The position numbers and the translations under genes are program-made. The notes under the pieces are model-generated. The model was not told the origin of the DNA. It did not search any database and saw only the letters and a program-made list of their open reading frames with translations. A stretch of DNA of 64,000 nucleotides, taken from contig JAFNMF010000030.1 in assembly GCA_026537415.1 (NCBI GenBank), forward strand, positions 124,001 through 188,000, given 5' to 3'. Below, one piece after another: positions 7,730 through 16,068 of this stretch. Each line of letters begins with the position of its first letter. Position 1 is the stretch's first letter. This DNA is from Acetobacteraceae bacterium B3987. GTDB lineage: Bacteria; Pseudomonadota; Alphaproteobacteria; Acetobacterales; Acetobacteraceae.

Positions 7730-10345
7730 TCAGCCTGCCACCACGAAATTGACGATCCGGTTAGGCACATGAATCTCCTTAACGATCCGCTTGCCCTCCA
7801 ATGCTTTCGCCACATTCGGCTCCGCTTTGGCCTGTGCCAATACGGCATCTTTCGCTTCATCTGGAGCACATGTGATGGTGCCACGCAGCTTTCCAAGAAC
7901 CTGCACGGCGATGGTCACTTTCTTGACAGCCAATAGACTTTCATCAGCTTCCGGCCAGCTCCGTTCCACCACCATCGGGCCTTCCGGCTCCAGAAGCAGC
8001 ATCAGCTCCTCAGCCAGATGCGGCATCATGGGGGAAACCAGCATAGCTAACACATAAGCCGCTTCACGACGGGCAGCAGACAGACCTTCACCATCCTTGC
8101 CCTCAGCCTCACCCAGTGCAGATGACAGCTCATGCAGACGGGCCACAGCCACGTTTGGGGTGAATCCTTCCAGAGCTTCCGTAACGGCAGCAATGGTGCG
8201 ATGCGTCACCTGACGAAGCTCTTCCCCGGCAGCACCATGAGCCGCATCAGCCTTGTCCTTCACCGCCACAGCCTGCACCTGCCGGTAGAGACGCTGCATG
8301 AAACGGCCAGACGCCGCCACGCCAGCGGCAGTCCATTCCATGTCACGCTCTGGCGGGCTGTCAGACAGCACGAACCAACGGGCCGTGTCAGCCCCGTAAC
8401 GCTCGATGATCTCTACCGGAGACACCGTATTGCGTTTGGACTTGGACATTTTCTCCGAACGTCCCACCGTAACAGGATTGCCATTATCCTTGCGGACAAC
8501 CTGCTCCCCACGATGCTCGACCTCTTCGGGATAGAGCCACTGGTTTCCATCACGATAGCTCTCGTGCGTTACCATGCCCTGCGTGAACAGCCCGGCGAAT
8601 GGCTCGCTGACATCCAGATGACCTGTCTTCTTCATCGCACGGGTAAAGAACCGGGCATAAAGCAGATGCAGGATAGCATGTTCGATGCCACCAATATACT
8701 GGTCCACGGCCAGCCAGCCATCAGCAGCCTTGCGGTCGGTCGGTGTTGCTGCCTTCGGAGCCGTAAAGCGGGCAAAATACCATGAGCTGTCCACGAACGT
8801 ATCGCAGGTATCCGTCTCACGCCGTGCTGCTGCACCGCATTTCGGGCAGGAAACATGCTTCCATGTCGGGTGGTGATCCAGCGGGTTACCCGGCGTGTCG
8901 AAACTCACATCTTCCGGCAATGTCACCGGCAGCTGATCTTCTGGCACCGGAACGGCACCACAGGAATCGCAATAGATGATGGGGATCGGGCAGCCCCAGT
9001 AACGCTGACGGGAAATCCCCCAGTCACGCAGACGCCAATTGGTCACGCCCTGACCAACGCCCAGCTCCTCCACCCGCTCAATGGCAGCACGGATGGCGTC
9101 TTTCGTGGTCTTCCCGCTCAGGAAGCCGGAATTATAAAGCGTTGCCTCGCCCGTGACGGCCTTTTTCCCCACGGTAAAGCTGGCTTCATCCTCACCCGCA
9201 GGCAACAGGACGGAAGGAACATCCAGACCATATTTACGGGCGAAGTCCAGATCACGTTGATCCCCACAGGGGCAACCGAACACAGCACCCGTGCCATATT
9301 CCGTCAGAACAAAATTAGCGATCCAGACCGGAGCCGTCTGTTCCGGATTCAGCGGGTTCACTACACGCAGGCCGGTATCGAAGCCACGCTTCTCCATCGT
9401 ACTCAGAGCTTCTTCAGACGTGCCAACACGCTGGCATTCCTCAACAAAGCTCTGTGCTTCCGGATTACCCGCCGCAATCTTGCGGGCCAACGGATGGTCC
9501 GCCGCAATACCAATGAAGCTCAGCCCGAACAGCGTATCAGGACGTGTGGTAAAGACCTCGGTGGAATCTTCATCCACGTCATAACCCTGCGGCGGGTTAT
9601 GCAGGCTGAAACGGACCTTCGCCCCCTCGGAACGGCCAATCCAGCGTTCCTGCATGGTGCGGACACGCTCAGGCCATTTATCAAGGTCCTTCAGCCCTTC
9701 CAGCAGAGGCTCGGCAAAATCGGTAATCTTCAGGAACCACTGGGAGAGTGTCTTCTTCTCCACCAGCGCACCAGACCGCCAGCCTCGCCCATCAACTACC
9801 TGCTCATTGGCAAGGACAGTCTGGTCCACAGGGTCCCAGTTAACAGATGAATCACGCCGTTCCACCAACCCGGCAGCCAGCATATCGAGAAACAGCTTCT
9901 GCTGCTGGCCGTAATAATCCGGCAGACAGGTGGCGATCTCACGCTTCCAGTCCAGCGAGAAACCGAGCCGCTGGAGCGTCCCCCGCATAGTAGAAATATT
10001 CTGGAGCGTCCACTTACCCGGATGCACACCCCGTTCCCGGGCAGCATTTTCTGCGGGCAGGCCGAAAGCATCCCAGCCCATCGGGTGCATCACGGCATAG
10101 CCACGTGCCCGCTTATACCGGGCAACAACATCACCCAGCGTGTAGTTGCGTACATGCCCTACATGCAGCTGCCCCGAAGGATAGGGGAACATTTCCAGAA
10201 CATAATATTTTGGCTTATCGGCAGGAGGAACATCCGGAACATGGAAAATATCGGCATCCGCCCACCGGGCCTGCCAGTGAGGCTCACGGGCATGGAAGTC
10301 GAAATTGGAAGAATCAGAAATGTTATTAGCTGTCATGTCACTCAT
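7730..10345 (-). CDS. leuS: Leucyl-tRNA synthetase
   Basis: LeuS (871 residues) charges tRNA-Leu in the cytoplasm. The class I signatures are present: the HIGH-like H-V-G-H at about residues 61-64 and the K-M-S-K-S loop near residue 632. The connective editing domain contains the F-T-T-R-P-D-T threonine-rich motif needed to hydrolyse mischarged amino acids. There is a zinc-like C-D-S-C-G / C-P-K-C-G pair around residues 460-510. The length is normal. It is followed at once by lptE and holA on the same strand and preceded by a DUF3576 lipoprotein gene 10 bases upstream. Confidence 0.97.
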
Positions 10346-10354
10346 TGGATTATC

Positions 10355-10948
10355 TTATTTCCCACCGCCATTCTCGGCCCGCAGCTGACGGGCACGCTCC
10401 AGAATACGGGCCGTAATGTCTGCTGCCGTGTTAGGGGCAGCAGGTGTATCTTCCCACTCTCCCCCATTGATACGTGTCTGACGGAAGACACTCAGGCGAA
10501 TGGCATCCGAACGCAGGCGGCGATCCAGCACATAGGCAGCAATCTTAAAACGCTCATCCTGCGCCCCCGGGGGCTGGTACCAGTCTGTCAGGATGACACC
10601 ACCCTGTGCATCGGCAGAGGCCATGGGCATGAAGGAAAGCGTATCAATCGCCCCACGCCAAAGATAGGCATTCACCCCACCACGAAGCTGATCGTCACCA
10701 CCCTGTGCGCCACGGTCCACACCAAGAAGGTGGTTACGAGGCAGTGTCAGCGAAGATGGGTCACGTGGCTTTCCGCCACAACCAGCCAATCCTCCAACAG
10801 TCATCACCGCCAGCAGCGACAGCACCATAGGACGACGTAGACCGTACCAGAGGACAGAAGAACGGGATACTGGGCGTGATGATGAAAGGAACATGGGCAA
10901 ACCTGCAAAGGCCGTGCCAGGGCCGGTCTTAAACAAGGCTTCCAGCAT
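10355..10948 (-). CDS. DUF3576 lipoprotein
   Basis: An envelope lipoprotein of unknown role, 197 residues if started at 10948. A membrane-export segment ends in the lipobox L-A-G-C (Cys at about residue 57 from this start), followed by a folded domain with the DUF3576 pattern: L-L-G-V-D, A-Y-L-W-R-G-A-I-D-T-L-S-F, then G-G-V-I-L-T-D-W-Y. The long sequence before the lipobox suggests that the true start is one of two downstream ATG codons, at 10894 or 10828. No start has a strong ribosome site. It lies 10 bases before leuS and is probably in the same transcript, an order seen in other alphaproteobacteria. Confidence 0.8.
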   Translation of the reverse strand: MLEALFKTGPGTAFAGLPMFLSSSRPVSRSSVLWYGLRRPMVLSLLAVMTVGGLAGCGGKPRDPSSLTLPRNHLLGVDRGAQGGDDQLRGGVNAYLWRGAIDTLSFMPMASADAQGGVILTDWYQPPGAQDERFKIAAYVLDRRLRSDAIRLSVFRQTRINGGEWEDTPAAPNTAADITARILERARQLRAENGGGK

Positions 10949-11035
10949 GGCAGGGGTGGAAGCATCAACTGTCAGAACAATTCCTTCTTATCGTGTTCCC
11001 CCTCACAGGCCAAGGGACATGGTACGGTGACAGGC

Positions 11036-11064
11036 TTGCGAAAGTGTAAAAAAAACGCTAGCTA
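11036..11064 (+). promoter_or_regulatory. Possible tRNA-Arg promoter
   Basis: TTGCGA at 11036-11041 and TAGCTA at 11059-11064 are 17 bases apart and end 10 bases before the tRNA. The -10 match to consensus is poor, so this is a weak call based mainly on position. Confidence 0.3.
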
Positions 11065-11074
11065 GATGCTGCGT

Positions 11075-11392
11075 GTCCACGTAGCTCAGCAGGATAGAGC
11101 ACAGGATTCCTAATCGTAATTGGGCACCGGGATGGCAAACCGCCCGGTGAATTCGCTCAAAGTCGGGGAACGCTAACGCCGTTTTCGGCCAGGCCAATCC
11201 CGAGCCAAGCCCGCCCTCACATGGGCGGGAAGGTGTAGAGACTGTACGGGCGACACCATGGCAGGCAAAAGCCTGTGGTGAAGAGACAGTCCAGACCACG
11301 AACGACACCTCTGCTATCAAGAGGCGGCGGCGGTGAAAACCGAAGTGGTATGAATCCTGGGGTCGAGGGTTCGAATCCCCCCGTGGACACCA
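11075..11392 (+). tRNA. tRNA-Arg(CCU), interrupted by a group I intron
   Basis: Joining 11075-11111 to 11353-11392 gives a complete cloverleaf. The acceptor stem is GTCCACG / CGTGGAC. The D-arm is GCTC / GAGC. The anticodon stem is CAGGA / TCCTG with loop TTCCTAA, hence anticodon CCU, which reads the arginine codon AGG. The variable loop is GGGTC and the T-arm GAGGG-TTCGAAT-CCCCC has one A-C mismatch. Discriminator A and an encoded CCA end at 11392. The gene is not functional unless the 241-base insert after anticodon position 36 is removed. An orphan protein gene starts 28 bases downstream. Confidence 0.95.
11112..11352 (+). other. Group I self-splicing intron (IC3-like) in tRNA-Arg
   Basis: The insert follows U36 of the anticodon and ends in G (omega-G) before A37, both standard for group I splice sites. 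The first GGG after the 5' splice site (11122-11124) can pair with exon CCU with a G-U wobble at the splice site, the three-base guide seen in Azoarcus pre-tRNA-Ile. The catalytic core is clear: the P7/R segment GTGTAGAGACTG (about 11233-11244) with its partner GAGACAGTCC (11283-11292), P8 as CAGGC-AAAA-GCCTG (11262-11275), and an outer P9-type helix ACCAC / GTGGT (11295-11299 with 11345-11349). No homing endonuclease is encoded; 241 nt is close to the size of tRNA introns in other bacteria. Subgroup IC3 is inferred by resemblance to the tRNA introns of Azoarcus and Agrobacterium. Confidence 0.93.
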
Positions 11393-11419
11393 CACGGAAC
11401 GCCGATAGGACAGACCAGA

Positions 11420-11983
11420 ATGACCCAGCGAGACACGGAGACCCTGCGCGCTTTCCAGAAATGGTTTCTCTCTCTCTCCGGTCCCGGCTTGATGCGTATA
11501 CCCCTCCATCAACCAATTTCTCAAAAGGACGGAGTGGTTGCCATCACCCTTTACCGGCGTAACGGCTATCAGGCAGAACTTTGCTATATCCCTCAGGGAA
11601 GGGAATACACTTTCGCCTTTCCTAAGGAGCAATCCGCAATCATGGCGTTCCTTGGTGGCTCATTTGACTGTGATACATCCACAGTACCCAACTTTATTGA
11701 AACACATGGGCGTGATCTGGTGCCAGACCGACTCCTAGAACAGAAGGAGATCGACCCCCATGAACCGCAGCTAGAGCAGGCACACCCAGCTATGAAAATG
11801 GCCGAAGAGCTACGCACCATAGACCTCACAGATGGCGACAAAGCCCGTGTAACCTTCTTTTCCCCCAAGGGGGATGGTGTTGTTCTGGTGTGTAGCTTTT
11901 ATGAAAACGACACCAATCTCAGCAGTATGAATTATCTCCACATGATATCCGAGAAGTGTAGCAATTCCTCTGGAGATTCTTAA
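11420..11983 (+). CDS. Hypothetical protein
   Basis: A 187-residue acidic, soluble-looking protein that I do not recognise. It has no signal peptide, membrane segment or obvious catalytic motif. The N-terminal ~90 residues alternate short hydrophobic and charged runs as in an alpha/beta fold (V-V-A-I-T-L-Y-R-R-N-G-Y, then Y-T-F-A-F-P). A second strand-rich part begins near residue 125 (A-R-V-T-F-F-S-P-K-G-D-G-V-V-L-V). It starts 28 bases after the intron-containing tRNA and ends 62 bases before the repeat-Hint gene on the same strand. That spacing would allow co-transcription, but no functional link is visible. Confidence 0.6.
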   Translation: MTQRDTETLRAFQKWFLSLSGPGLMRIPLHQPISQKDGVVAITLYRRNGYQAELCYIPQGREYTFAFPKEQSAIMAFLGGSFDCDTSTVPNFIETHGRDLVPDRLLEQKEIDPHEPQLEQAHPAMKMAEELRTIDLTDGDKARVTFFSPKGDGVVLVCSFYENDTNLSSMNYLHMISEKCSNSSGDS

Positions 11984-12045: not shown

Positions 12046-15000
12046 ATGGCCGATTCCTACACCTACGACCCCTATTACGATAGACTTTACGCCCTAAATT
12101 CCGCTCCTAAAGGGTGGCATAAGGTCACCAATGGTGGCACAAACAGCTCTTACACAAAAAACACTTACGTCAGTGGTACTAACTTACTTGGCGAGAACAG
12201 CCTCTTTTATCAGTACAACGACCCCATAAATAATGGTATCGCCGTTAATGGTGGTTCCATAGCTATTATCGGCTCAAAGGGCTTACTTACTGGTGGTACG
12301 GCACTCTACAATGCTTCAATCGAAGCACTCGGTAGCGGTGTCATCTCCCGCGGAATTGTTGGCTCATCTGGAGCTATCTTTGCTGGGGGCGTTACCGCCA
12401 AGACCTATGGGGCTTACGTCAGTGGCGGTGGTACTGCGTTGGATCCTGTTGTTGGCTCCGCTGGTTATGCACTCGCAGGCGGTGGCGCAGCTGACTTCGT
12501 CGTTAAGGGCTACGCAGTAGACGGATCTGGTGGGCTGATTAGTGGTGGGACATTCAACCCGGGCAGCCTTTACGGTATCGGTAATGGAGGAACAGGAAGC
12601 GGCGGCACCATCTTTGGTAGTCAGGCTGTCTTCTCCGGTGGCCTTTCCAAAGATCTGCTGTTCACAGACAGCAAGGCAGTCCAGCTGGTTGTCAGTAACG
12701 GTCTGTCCTCACGGTCCACCATATTGGGTGGTACGCTCCTCAACTCTGGCGGAACCACGTCTGGTGCCGTCATTAAAAATGGCGGGACAATCCGAGTTGC
12801 TGGTGGAACATATTTCAGCTGGCTTAACGCCAACTACCAGCAGGTCTATGGTGGTTACGGTCTTGGCTCCTCGTATGATGATATCATCTCATCCGGTGCG
12901 ACCGAACTTGTCTATAGCGATGGGGCTGTAACACGCTCCATTCTCTCAAGCGGGGCACAGGGCACGATTTTCAATGGCGGTACGAGCCTGTCTCCCACCA
13001 TTGCAGGTGGCACAGAAACCGTCAGCTCTGGCGGGAGTCTTCTCAACGGGGCTATTAACAATAACGGTACTGTCTTTGTTGGCTCGAGTGGCTATGTTTC
13101 TGGCCTGAGTGCCAGCCGGGGCTATGCTGAAATTCAGTCCGGTGGTGTTGGATCCGAATTTGTCGCTAATAATGGCGGGACCATCCAGATTGATAATGGC
13201 GGTAGTGCTAGTCACCTCACTGTAAATAATGGTGGTACTCTGTCGCTTCTCTCCGGCGGTAGCATCATAAACGGTGCTACCATCATCGCCAATTCGACTG
13301 ACAATGTCGTCTTCTCGTCTGGAGGAGTCGTAGACTACATCGTGGCCAGTGGTGGGACGTCAGTCATCACGTCGGGTGCCACAATTCTTAACAACACTGT
13401 TTATGCTGTTGGCAGTGGTACAGCTCTTCTCTCGGGCTCGGGGGTTAGCGTCGGAACTGCCCTGGCCGGAACAGACCCCAATAACTCCAATGCCCGCGGC
13501 GGTACAGTTGCTATCAGCAATGGGGGAGCCGTATCCTCCGCAACAGCACAGCCAGCGGGTGCTGTCATCCTCGGTTCAGGGGGAACAATTGGTGGGTCCC
13601 TCTCCATCGTAGGTGGTACGGGTAGCCTCATGTCCGGCGGCCTGATTGATACCTCCATACCGCTGCAAGTCTCCGCTGGCGCTGTATCTGTAACAGCAGG
13701 ATCTTGGTGGGGCGCACAAACAACGACATCAGCTGTTGGTGGGTATCTCTACGTCGATTCTGGCTACAGTTTCAAAGAAATTGATCTCGCCTCCCAGGGA
13801 ACAGCTACCATTAATGGTGCCATTGTCAGCGGCATGAGCATGGCCTCTAACGCTGTTAACACCATTACCGGCGGTGGTACTGTGCTGTCTATTACAGCCT
13901 CGGGTGGAACAAACAGCATCGGTGGAACAAACAGTGCCGGCAGTAAGTCCATCGCATTCACCCTCAATGCGACGGGCGGGACAAATATTGTCTCCAGTGG
14001 GGGAAGCATAGGGACTCTCAGTGCGACGGGCGGAACAAACAATATTCTCGCTGGTGCCACCGTTACGTCTCTTACGGCCTCAAATGCGACAAACAGCGTC
14101 TCCAATACGGCCGTTGTAGGCAGCCTCAATGCGACGGGGGGGACAAATATTGTCTCCAGCGCAGCTGTCCTCCAACTCAACGCTACGAGTGCAACAAACA
14201 TCCTTGCCTCTAAAGCACTCGTCCAAGACTTCAACGCTATTGGCGGCGCAAACACCATTGCCTCCGGTGCGCGTGTTCTCAACACGCTCAGCGCAAGCCA
14301 GGGAGCCTCTCTCTCCATTGCCAGCGGTGCTACCGTGATGCATGTCACGCTCGATAGCGTCAATGCAGACATCCCCCAGGGTGGGGCAGGCATTCAGACC
14401 CTTTCCGCTGTCAATGGGGCGACGAGCATCATCAACTCCGGTGCTAACCTCAACAGCGTGTTCCTCTCATCTGGTAATGCGACTGTCGCCTCTGGTGCCT
14501 TCATCAGCCGCCTGACCATTATGAGCGGGGCTTCTGGCGTTCTGAACTCCGGGGCATCTGTCCAGCACATCGATGTGGCTAATGGCGGATGGGTCAGCGG
14601 GGCGCGTGTTGCCAATAACAGCGAACTGGCTGTGTCTTCTGGCGGAACGGCCATACAGACCCTCGTCACATATGACTCGGGCACTGGGCAGCACGTTTCC
14701 AGCCCCTACACCATGGTTCAGTCCGGCGGTACGGTATCCGGTGCTACGATTGCCGGCGCACCAGATGGTGCTGGAACGAACAATCTGGGTGGCCTGTTGA
14801 CCATTGCCTCCGGTGCTGTACTCGTCGACACCTCCATGGGCTACAACGCTCGTATCCGTGTTGATGGCCTGAAATATAGCAACTCTGGTAGCGTCAGCCT
14901 CAAACAGGGAATCCTGACAGTCTCAGAAAACGGCCAAACCTGGCAGATCAACCTGACAGGTAACTACGAAGCCAACGGGTTCATCCTCAATGATGACGGG

Positions 15001-16068
15001 AACGGCAACACCATCGTTGTTTACCAGAAGTGCTTCCTTGCTGGCAGCATGATCCGTACCCCCAAGGGTGAGAAGGCTGTGGAGCGGCTGCGTAAGGGCG
15101 AACAGATCTGCGTCTTTGCAGATGGAAAAGAAGATGTTCGTGAGATTACGGCTGTCATCCAGCGTCGTGCCCGTGTGAACACCTCTCAGCCTGAGGATAT
15201 GGCTGGTTGGTCCGTCATCGTGGCAAAAGACGCCTTTGGCGAGGGTCTGCCCAATAAGGACCTCTCTGTCACACCGGAACATTGCTTCTATTTCGAAGGA
15301 CGCTTCGTTCCTGCTCGTATGCTCGTCAATGGCACATCGATCCGCTACGATCACAGCCAAGTAGAGTATGACTACTATCATGTGCAGACAGCACCTCATT
15401 CTATTATCTGGGCCAATGATGTTCTGACGGAAAGCTGGCTGGATACGGATGAGGAACAACTCTACAAACCGGAAAGTTCCTCGGAAGACGTCCTGAGCCT
15501 GGCAGATCGTCAGCAGCTCAACTGGAACGAGCATGCTGCGGCACCGCTTGATGTGTCTCAGGCCTTCGTGAAGCCGCTTCATGAACGTCTCGCTGCACGA
15601 GCCGTTGAACTGGGCATCACAAAGGCCGAGACGGCTGCTGATGTGTCCCATGATGGCATGACGGCAGACCCGGCACCTTACATCCGGTTGGAAGATGGGC
15701 GGACCATCCGTCCCCAGCGGCATGAAGCAGGCCGTTATATCTTCTCTCTGCCTGCCCATGCCCGCCGTGTCATACTGGGTTCCCGGACATTCCGTCCTTC
15801 CGAGAATATCGGGCCGCATATGGATGACCGGCGTGAACTCGGTATGCTAGTCGGCCAGGTGTCTGTCTGGGCTGGTGGTCGTGAGTACGTCATGACCCGT
15901 CATCTGACAGAAAAGCACCTGAAGGGCTGGGATGTCATTGAAGCTGGCCCTCATCGTTGGACGCAGGGAGAAGCAGAACTCCTCCTGCATGATGCTCCGT
16001 CCGCTAATGTCGGCCAGAACATGGTCAGCATCGAAGTACAGGCTGGCGGTCCTTACCGGCAGGCTTAA
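12046..16068 (+). CDS. Giant repeat protein with C-terminal Hint (Hedgehog/intein) domain
   Basis: A 1340-residue protein. Residues ~30-985 are built from dozens of imperfect ~18-22-residue repeats around N-G-G-T or S-S-G-G motifs (for example V-S-S-G-G-S, A-S-G-A-T-V), the pattern of AIDA-type right-handed beta-solenoids. At residue 996 a Hint_2-type domain begins at a Cys (C-F-L-A-G-S-M-I-R-T-P-K-G), with a T-P-E-H-C block near residue 1083 and H-S-I-I-W-A-N-D-V-L-T-E-S-W further on. Roughly 200 more residues follow. Hint domains cleave peptide bonds through the leading Cys; this layout is widespread in Acetobacteraceae. No signal peptide and no autotransporter barrel are visible, so the export route is unknown. 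It may be a surface adhesin or a matrix protein. Confidence 0.85.
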   Translation: MADSYTYDPYYDRLYALNSAPKGWHKVTNGGTNSSYTKNTYVSGTNLLGENSLFYQYNDPINNGIAVNGGSIAIIGSKGLLTGGTALYNASIEALGSGVISRGIVGSSGAIFAGGVTAKTYGAYVSGGGTALDPVVGSAGYALAGGGAADFVVKGYAVDGSGGLISGGTFNPGSLYGIGNGGTGSGGTIFGSQAVFSGGLSKDLLFTDSKAVQLVVSNGLSSRSTILGGTLLNSGGTTSGAVIKNGGTIRVAGGTYFSWLNANYQQVYGGYGLGSSYDDIISSGATELVYSDGAVTRSILSSGAQGTIFNGGTSLSPTIAGGTETVSSGGSLLNGAINNNGTVFVGSSGYVSGLSASRGYAEIQSGGVGSEFVANNGGTIQIDNGGSASHLTVNNGGTLSLLSGGSIINGATIIANSTDNVVFSSGGVVDYIVASGGTSVITSGATILNNTVYAVGSGTALLSGSGVSVGTALAGTDPNNSNARGGTVAISNGGAVSSATAQPAGAVILGSGGTIGGSLSIVGGTGSLMSGGLIDTSIPLQVSAGAVSVTAGSWWGAQTTTSAVGGYLYVDSGYSFKEIDLASQGTATINGAIVSGMSMASNAVNTITGGGTVLSITASGGTNSIGGTNSAGSKSIAFTLNATGGTNIVSSGGSIGTLSATGGTNNILAGATVTSLTASNATNSVSNTAVVGSLNATGGTNIVSSAAVLQLNATSATNILASKALVQDFNAIGGANTIASGARVLNTLSASQGASLSIASGATVMHVTLDSVNADIPQGGAGIQTLSAVNGATSIINSGANLNSVFLSSGNATVASGAFISRLTIMSGASGVLNSGASVQHIDVANGGWVSGARVANNSELAVSSGGTAIQTLVTYDSGTGQHVSSPYTMVQSGGTVSGATIAGAPDGAGTNNLGGLLTIASGAVLVDTSMGYNARIRVDGLKYSNSGSVSLKQGILTVSENGQTWQINLTGNYEANGFILNDDGNGNTIVVYQKCFLAGSMIRTPKGEKAVERLRKGEQICVFADGKEDVREITAVIQRRARVNTSQPEDMAGWSVIVAKDAFGEGLPNKDLSVTPEHCFYFEGRFVPARMLVNGTSIRYDHSQVEYDYYHVQTAPHSIIWANDVLTESWLDTDEEQLYKPESSSEDVLSLADRQQLNWNEHAAAPLDVSQAFVKPLHERLAARAVELGITKAETAADVSHDGMTADPAPYIRLEDGRTIRPQRHEAGRYIFSLPAHARRVILGSRTFRPSENIGPHMDDRRELGMLVGQVSVWAGGREYVMTRHLTEKHLKGWDVIEAGPHRWTQGEAELLLHDAPSANVGQNMVSIEVQAGGPYRQA

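Follow-up and report, generated by a model that had tools for sequence, protein, structure and literature searches.

In a 64,000-nucleotide stretch of Acetobacteraceae DNA (the window, which is part of contig C27 in a genome of 2.04 Mb and 30 contigs), the two halves of a tRNA-Arg(CCU) gene stand 241 nt apart. This raises the questions of what the intervening sequence is, how a mature tRNA could be made from such a gene, whether the reading of AGG codons depends on it, and how it came to lie at this site. A sequence-only reading had proposed a self-splicing group I intron; its observation was confirmed, and its interpretation is partly supported. The intervening sequence almost certainly belongs to the alphaproteobacterial family of tRNA-Arg(CCU) group I introns, that is, it is a self-splicing P1-P9 ribozyme inherited with its locus and without a mobility gene.

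When introns were permitted, ARAGORN called tRNA-Arg(cct) with intron (38,241), so the coordinates read earlier from the bare sequence are exact: the gene occupies 11075-11392 on the plus strand and is interrupted after U36 by 241 nt (11112-11352). Without introns, ARAGORN yielded the tRNA-Thr of the window alone and missed the split gene, and the same tRNA-Thr was the sole scorer in the window when Rfam was searched at gathering threshold. With introns of 180-400 nt permitted over the whole window, the split tRNA-Arg(CCU) was the only gene called with an intron; a tRNA-Gly with a 1,287-nt "intron," called in the window at 100-1500 nt, was taken as chance. Applied to 70 fetched intron loci, ARAGORN returned "cct" in 47 and displaced the junction in 23. 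The parts of the gene and two neighboring genes are as follows:

7730-10345, minus strand: leuS (Pfam), used as a synteny and host marker
10355-10948, minus strand: gene with DUF3576 (PF12100, E 1.2e-39), between leuS and the tRNA
11075-11111, plus strand: exon 1 (5') of tRNA-Arg(CCU), 37 nt, final base U36
11112-11352, plus strand: group I intron of 241 nt, ending in the omega G (11352)
11353-11392, plus strand: exon 2 (3') with encoded CCA (sequence and ARAGORN)

Exon 1 ends with GGATTCCT (plus strand) and, in an alignment of 30 genes (A1), varies only at positions 4, 5, 16, and 17 of its 37, while exon 2 starts with AATCCTGG and encodes the CCA end. The intron-terminal G is an invariant column of the same alignment. 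No sense frame of endonuclease size lies within the 241-nt intron, which is therefore not of the endonuclease-bearing mobile type, in agreement with the earlier statement that a homing endonuclease is absent. A consensus scan of 10900-11500 found no sigma-70-like promoter, and this was counted against the best explanation. On the minus strand, two antisense frames run across the tRNA gene (11003-11632 and 11217-11516), with no Pfam match; one of them contains GDSNPRP, which commonly marks a false frame over a tRNA. Elsewhere in the window, a repeat-rich frame of 1,340 aa (12046-16068) has a Hint_2 domain (PF13403) at residues 996-1134.

The Rfam model Intron_gpI (RF00028) matched 11099-11302 from its first to its last position, with 32.3 bits and an E value of 1.1e-6 in a short search, and this was the only Intron_gpI match of the genome at E values up to 10. 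The covariance-model search that had been proposed as a check thus succeeded over the whole model but did not reach the gathering score of 50. Among 20 related loci, 14 matched at E values up to 0.001 and 6 did not, and since none of the 20 attained 50 (the top score was 49.6), the cut-off is strict for the tRNA-Arg(CCU) subfamily. The gathering score is a curation line that Rfam draws for a single general model and does not define what a group I intron is; the gathering search alone would have led to rejection of the intron, which the permissive search and the relatives overturned. The helices P1 to P9 were drawn on the window sequence and then counted over the 30 genes of A1:

11109-11124, plus strand: P1, exon CCU (11109-11111) and AAU with AUU and guide GGG (11122-11124), U.G at the 5' splice site
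11119-11121, plus strand: putative P10, AUU able to pair with exon-2 AAU (11353-11355), inferred from sequence
11125-11131/11143-11149, plus strand: P2, inner GG/CC and loop CAAA, two-sided changes in 5/7 pairs
11153-11158 with 11248-11253, plus strand: P3, 100% paired, two-sided changes in 3/6 pairs
11163-11167/11199-11203, plus strand: P4, invariant in A1
11172-11173/11193-11194, plus strand: P5, invariant in A1
11178-11181/11186-11189, plus strand: P5a, two-sided changes in 4/4 pairs, 81.5% of cells paired
11204-11206/11232-11234, plus strand: P6, invariant in A1
11210-11216/11223-11229, plus strand: P6a, two-sided changes in 7/7 pairs, 84.2% of cells paired
11240-11244 with 11287-11291, plus strand: P7, the G-binding helix, invariant in 30/30
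11254-11258/11276-11280, plus strand: P8, two-sided changes in 4/5 pairs
11262-11266/11271-11275, plus strand: P8b (inner), 41.7% of cells paired as drawn, a weak point
11295-11299/11345-11349, plus strand: P9.0, 92.7% of cells paired
11308-11312/11320-11324, plus strand: P9b, 74.3% of cells paired, a weak point
11331-11334/11339-11342, plus strand: P9 with GAAA loop, 100% of cells paired

With the P3/P7 pseudoknot included, 91.3% of the cells in A1 were standard pairs, and two-sided changes were seen in 40 of the 92 pairs. Cells with such changes numbered 236, compared with a shuffled mean of 82.8; none of 500 shuffles was as high as the real fold on any of five measures, and sliding the partners by 1-3 columns brought pairing down to 36-42%. 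P3, P4, P5, P6, and P7 were paired in all 30 rows; P7, being invariant, gives no covariation either way. Within P1, the CCU:GGG pairing was kept in 30/30 genes, and the inner three pairs failed in 6, 2, and 12 of the 30, respectively. A core model (R1) built from 33 sequences of this intron family, one of them from a plasmid, scored 154.8 bits over 11148-11303 of the window, whose own sequence is among the 33. The U at the 5' splice site, the intron-final G, the CCU:GGG pairing, and P7, all named by the sequence-only reading, are present, as is the P3-P8 core, and the assignment to group I is upheld by the RF00028 match, although below gathering, together with the covariation across 30 genes.

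In the precursor tRNA, the intron would fold into the P1-P9 ribozyme, and the guide GGG would pair with the anticodon CCU, leaving a U.G pair at the cut. By analogy with the family, an external guanosine bound at P7 would attack after U36, and the freed U36 would attack after G11352, so that the two exons are ligated and give a mature tRNA for AGG codons; the AUU of P1 may pair with the exon-2 AAU as P10. The Bartonella bacilliformis member (BbgpI) is reported to be self-splicing, with splicing both in vivo and in vitro (PMC7717549), and guanosine-dependent self-splicing of the window intron is predicted from this relative.

How far does the reading of AGG hang on this reaction? The genome gave 50 tRNA matches, of which 49 lay within 48 loci run through ARAGORN and one was the tRNA-Thr of the window. 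A tRNA was called in 46 of the 48 loci; of the remaining two, one is a fragment at a contig end and the other matched only weakly (31.8 bits). The tRNAs identified for Arg were ACG (two copies), CCG, and UCU. No intact tRNA-Arg(CCU) was found among the 50 matches, which answers the proposed search for a second copy; its absence is not proven, because the assembly consists of 30 contigs. A UCU anticodon is able to read AGG by wobble, and since a tRNA-Arg(UCU) gene exists (C28:792495-792568), AGG reading need not depend on splicing, and the suggestion that its decoding depends on ribozyme activity was too strong. Across 39 long window frames, picked by length and not by annotation, 80 codons out of 17,361 are AGG.

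First found in Agrobacterium, the tRNA-Arg(CCU) intron family became known in related bacteria decades ago. The introns of Agrobacterium and B. bacilliformis (BbgpI) have the same tRNA, site after U36, GGG guide, and core as that of the window but differ in loop lengths and sequences; two Agrobacterium introns measure 223 and 236 nt (L197 and L255), against 241 nt in the window, and the CAAA L2 loop belongs to the window's genus. The earlier statement that Agrobacterium has an intron in this tRNA gene is supported, the site being the same. Homology to the Agrobacterium and Bartonella members was shown on several species of each, with no B. bacilliformis locus among them. Introns of other acetic acid bacteria show only sequence and loop-length differences, and one of them (L125) aligns throughout. 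According to a table footnote in PMC4596401, one Arg tRNA is interrupted by a group I intron homologue in Asaia, Acetobacter, Gluconobacter, Komagataeibacter, and Gluconacetobacter; Granulibacter has no such mark there.

Outside this family, the tRNA-Leu(UAA) introns of alphaproteobacteria have a core homologous to that of the window but are inserted after U34 of another tRNA; those of cyanobacteria and plastids are a related system, the homologous core being shown for the alphaproteobacterial ones only. The Azoarcus tRNA-Ile(CAU) intron is inserted after U36 and has a three-base anticodon guide and a compact core, and the IC3 subgroup label for such introns is taken over from the Azoarcus literature. 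It interrupts a different tRNA from that of the window, and the likeness is one of description; crystal structures of this IC3 intron are cited in PMC3984707. One locus of the same genus (L016) recurs in full and without a mismatch inside a contig of Bombella saccharophila TMW 2.2558 (L268), so the window's genus is that of Bombella; a literature search that covered few subscription papers found no paper on tRNA introns in Bombella. The window intron is real, well explained, and belongs to an already known family.

The description of such introns as scattered and rare did not hold, although their distribution is patchy. With the 318-nt gene as query, the split gene was found full length in at least 113 of 299 sampled genomes of the bacterial family and partially in 2 (matches listed). 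A joined-exon query found an intact gene over 69-77 nt in 144 of the 299, with no overlap between the 113 and the 144 genomes among the matches listed; the other 42 comprise the 2 partial cases and 40 not assignable. All 20 fetched intact loci read tRNA-Arg(CCT). A scan of named records for the intron-exon 3' junction gave at least 119 stretches. Of the 119 listed, 115 held the R1 core (one stretch, L234, is cut by the locus end) and 113 had exon 1 213-264 nt upstream; the R1-positive loci listed include Agrobacterium, Rhizobium, Phyllobacterium, Bartonella, Rhodobacter, Azospirillum, Magnetospirillum, Gluconobacter, Komagataeibacter, and Bombella. No R1 core was found in the junction stretches L244, L280, L285, and L298. 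Two of these, L280 and L298, come from records titled Clostridia and Lentisphaeria and show the 3' junction pattern without the R1 core in the stretch searched.

At E values up to 0.001, R1 matched 50 of 387 genomes in a class sample and 36 of 299 in a phylum sample, the window's genome being counted in both. Of 30 class loci with R1, 27 were readable (3 had no reading motif), and their junctions, read by eye, belonged to tRNA-Leu (mostly UAA), tRNA-Arg(CCU), and tRNA-Thr. Second introns of relatives, read in the same way, lie in Leu(UAA) after U34, Thr(GGU) after U36, and Arg(UCU) after U34; the labels Phe, His, and Ser given to them by ARAGORN were rejected on the by-eye junctions. At one locus (L092), a C precedes the junction. 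One genome (G169) has at least 841 identical nt twice (L090 661-1501 and L140 799-1639), running from mid-intron through exon 2 and downstream.

Could the arrangement be something other than a working, inherited intron? Two tRNA-like halves that fold together by chance, or that belong to a trans-split tRNA, would account for the spacing and nothing more; this reading is refuted by the covariation and the homology, and we give it practically no credence. A decayed intron in a tRNA pseudogene, with splicing lost, would fit a score under the Rfam gathering line and an L2 loop and T-stem pair that deviate from most relatives, all of which were also counted against the best explanation. The L2 loop is CAAA instead of GNRA: position 11136 is C in 6/6 same-genus rows and G in all 24 others (CAAA versus GAAA, the others having GNRA). 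The T-stem A.C mismatch (11366/11380), which the sequence-only reading did not mention, occurs in 7 of the 30 A1 genes, the window's among them: five of the six same-genus rows show it, as do L018 and L026 of another genus, whereas L013 has A-U there. Because both features recur among same-genus rows, they are not fresh decay of the window copy. The full pairing of P3, P4, P5, P6, and P7 in every row and the failure to find a further CCU tRNA in the genome also speak against decay, which is very improbable.

The patchiness within the family might instead mean that the intron arrived recently, through horizontal transfer or transposition, as might the carrier G020, which lies amid intronless genomes on a leuS tree, and the title of Paquin et al. 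1999 names horizontal transmission and transposition in alpha-purple bacteria. However, the intron is present in 8/8 same-genus genomes of the family search (matches listed), the gene of the 7 others being 81-93% like that of the window, and the same-genus introns form one clade of 8 (SH-aLRT 92). Synteny and the leuS tree were studied in 30 hand-picked genomes (18 carriers and 12 intronless). In 16 of the 18 carriers, leuS lies 0.7-3.2 kb from the split tRNA, being on another contig in 2; of the 12 intronless genomes, two from a single genus (G029 and G116) have leuS within 1 kb, three have it on another contig, and seven have it at least 84 kb away (in G100, at 84 kb if the contig is circular). 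Intron presence on the unrooted leuS tree takes 3 changes, against a shuffled mean of 9.5, with 0 of 500 shuffles as low. A recent arrival thus appears highly unlikely, and the earlier wording, "inherited or recently fixed," is supported in its first part but not in its second.

Under the family-intron explanation, the intron would have been passed on with its locus in the acetic-acid-bacterial part of the family, with no mobility gene. The data are most simply read as an old intron passed down in what we label the part of the family around the acetic acid bacteria, lost once in place and, separately, gained or retained once; which changes were gains and which were losses is an inference, the leuS tree being unrooted. 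In G029 and G116 (L154 and L153, respectively), tRNA-Arg(CCU) lacks the intron but stands next to leuS and the DUF3576 gene, just where the window has its split gene; the two genomes group with a carrier on the leuS tree. Their rows have a long branch and an odd letter make-up, so their placement next to G066 deserves less trust than its support value suggests. In the intron tree, 44 of 82 inner branches are open, two long branches are joined, and there is no clean Arg(CCU) clade (3 changes, with one Thr row within Arg rows and four Arg rows beside Leu rows). Because of this poor resolution, no claim is made on the order of transfers between tRNAs, and the tree is too poorly resolved for comparison with host trees beyond the genus.

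Relatives of the intron on resistance plasmids and phages are more surprising than the window intron itself. A plasmid segment with a split tRNA-Leu(UAA) was found in 1,280 of 72,556 plasmid records, 1,268 of them at ≥99% identity and 1,257 over ≥80% of the length, mostly in enterobacteria and also in Acinetobacter. The tRNA-Leu(UAA) with its related group I intron is unannotated (L040 2926-3226, equal to NZ_CP139688.1 13523-13823, and L311 4001-4299), and it adjoins an AAA ATPase gene and aac(3)-IId in both plasmid records that were opened. In Gordonia phage Daredevil, a related group I intron, inserted after U34, interrupts an unannotated tRNA-Lys(UUU) beside the integrase (NC_048021.1 41820-42131, minus strand; L310 1420-1731). 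Daredevil, with two records, was the only phage matched by the window gene among 50,697 phage records.

A core scan of IMG/VR gave at least 120 stretches (L362-L481, e.g., L383, L388, L417, and L374). In the 120 listed, ARAGORN called a split tRNA in 47 and none in 73, Arg(UCU) being commonest (18); the labels were checked by eye for part of the 47. The contigs of L374 and L383 have phage-like replication genes nearby, with 8/8 proteins matching PHROGs, and neither of the two proteins on the L395 contig matched PHROGs. All phage introns known by 2014 are placed in protein-coding genes by a review of that year (PMC3984707), and the titles and abstracts in our literature search revealed no paper with phage tRNA introns as its subject. 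Phages and conjugative plasmids carrying split Arg(UCU), Leu(UAA), and Lys(UUU) genes, and not endonuclease homing, might conceivably feed intron transfer between bacterial tRNA genes, including the origin of the tRNA-Arg(CCU) copies later inherited by acetic acid bacteria, an idea that we consider rather unlikely.

The finding matters mostly for how the tRNA sets of these bacteria are recorded: because both ARAGORN without introns and the Rfam cut-off miss the split gene, their genomes may seem to be without tRNA-Arg(CCU). In one genus, the corresponding position next to leuS holds an uninterrupted gene, which is useful for studies of loss versus inheritance, and the related introns in phage and plasmid tRNA genes offer a wider lead.
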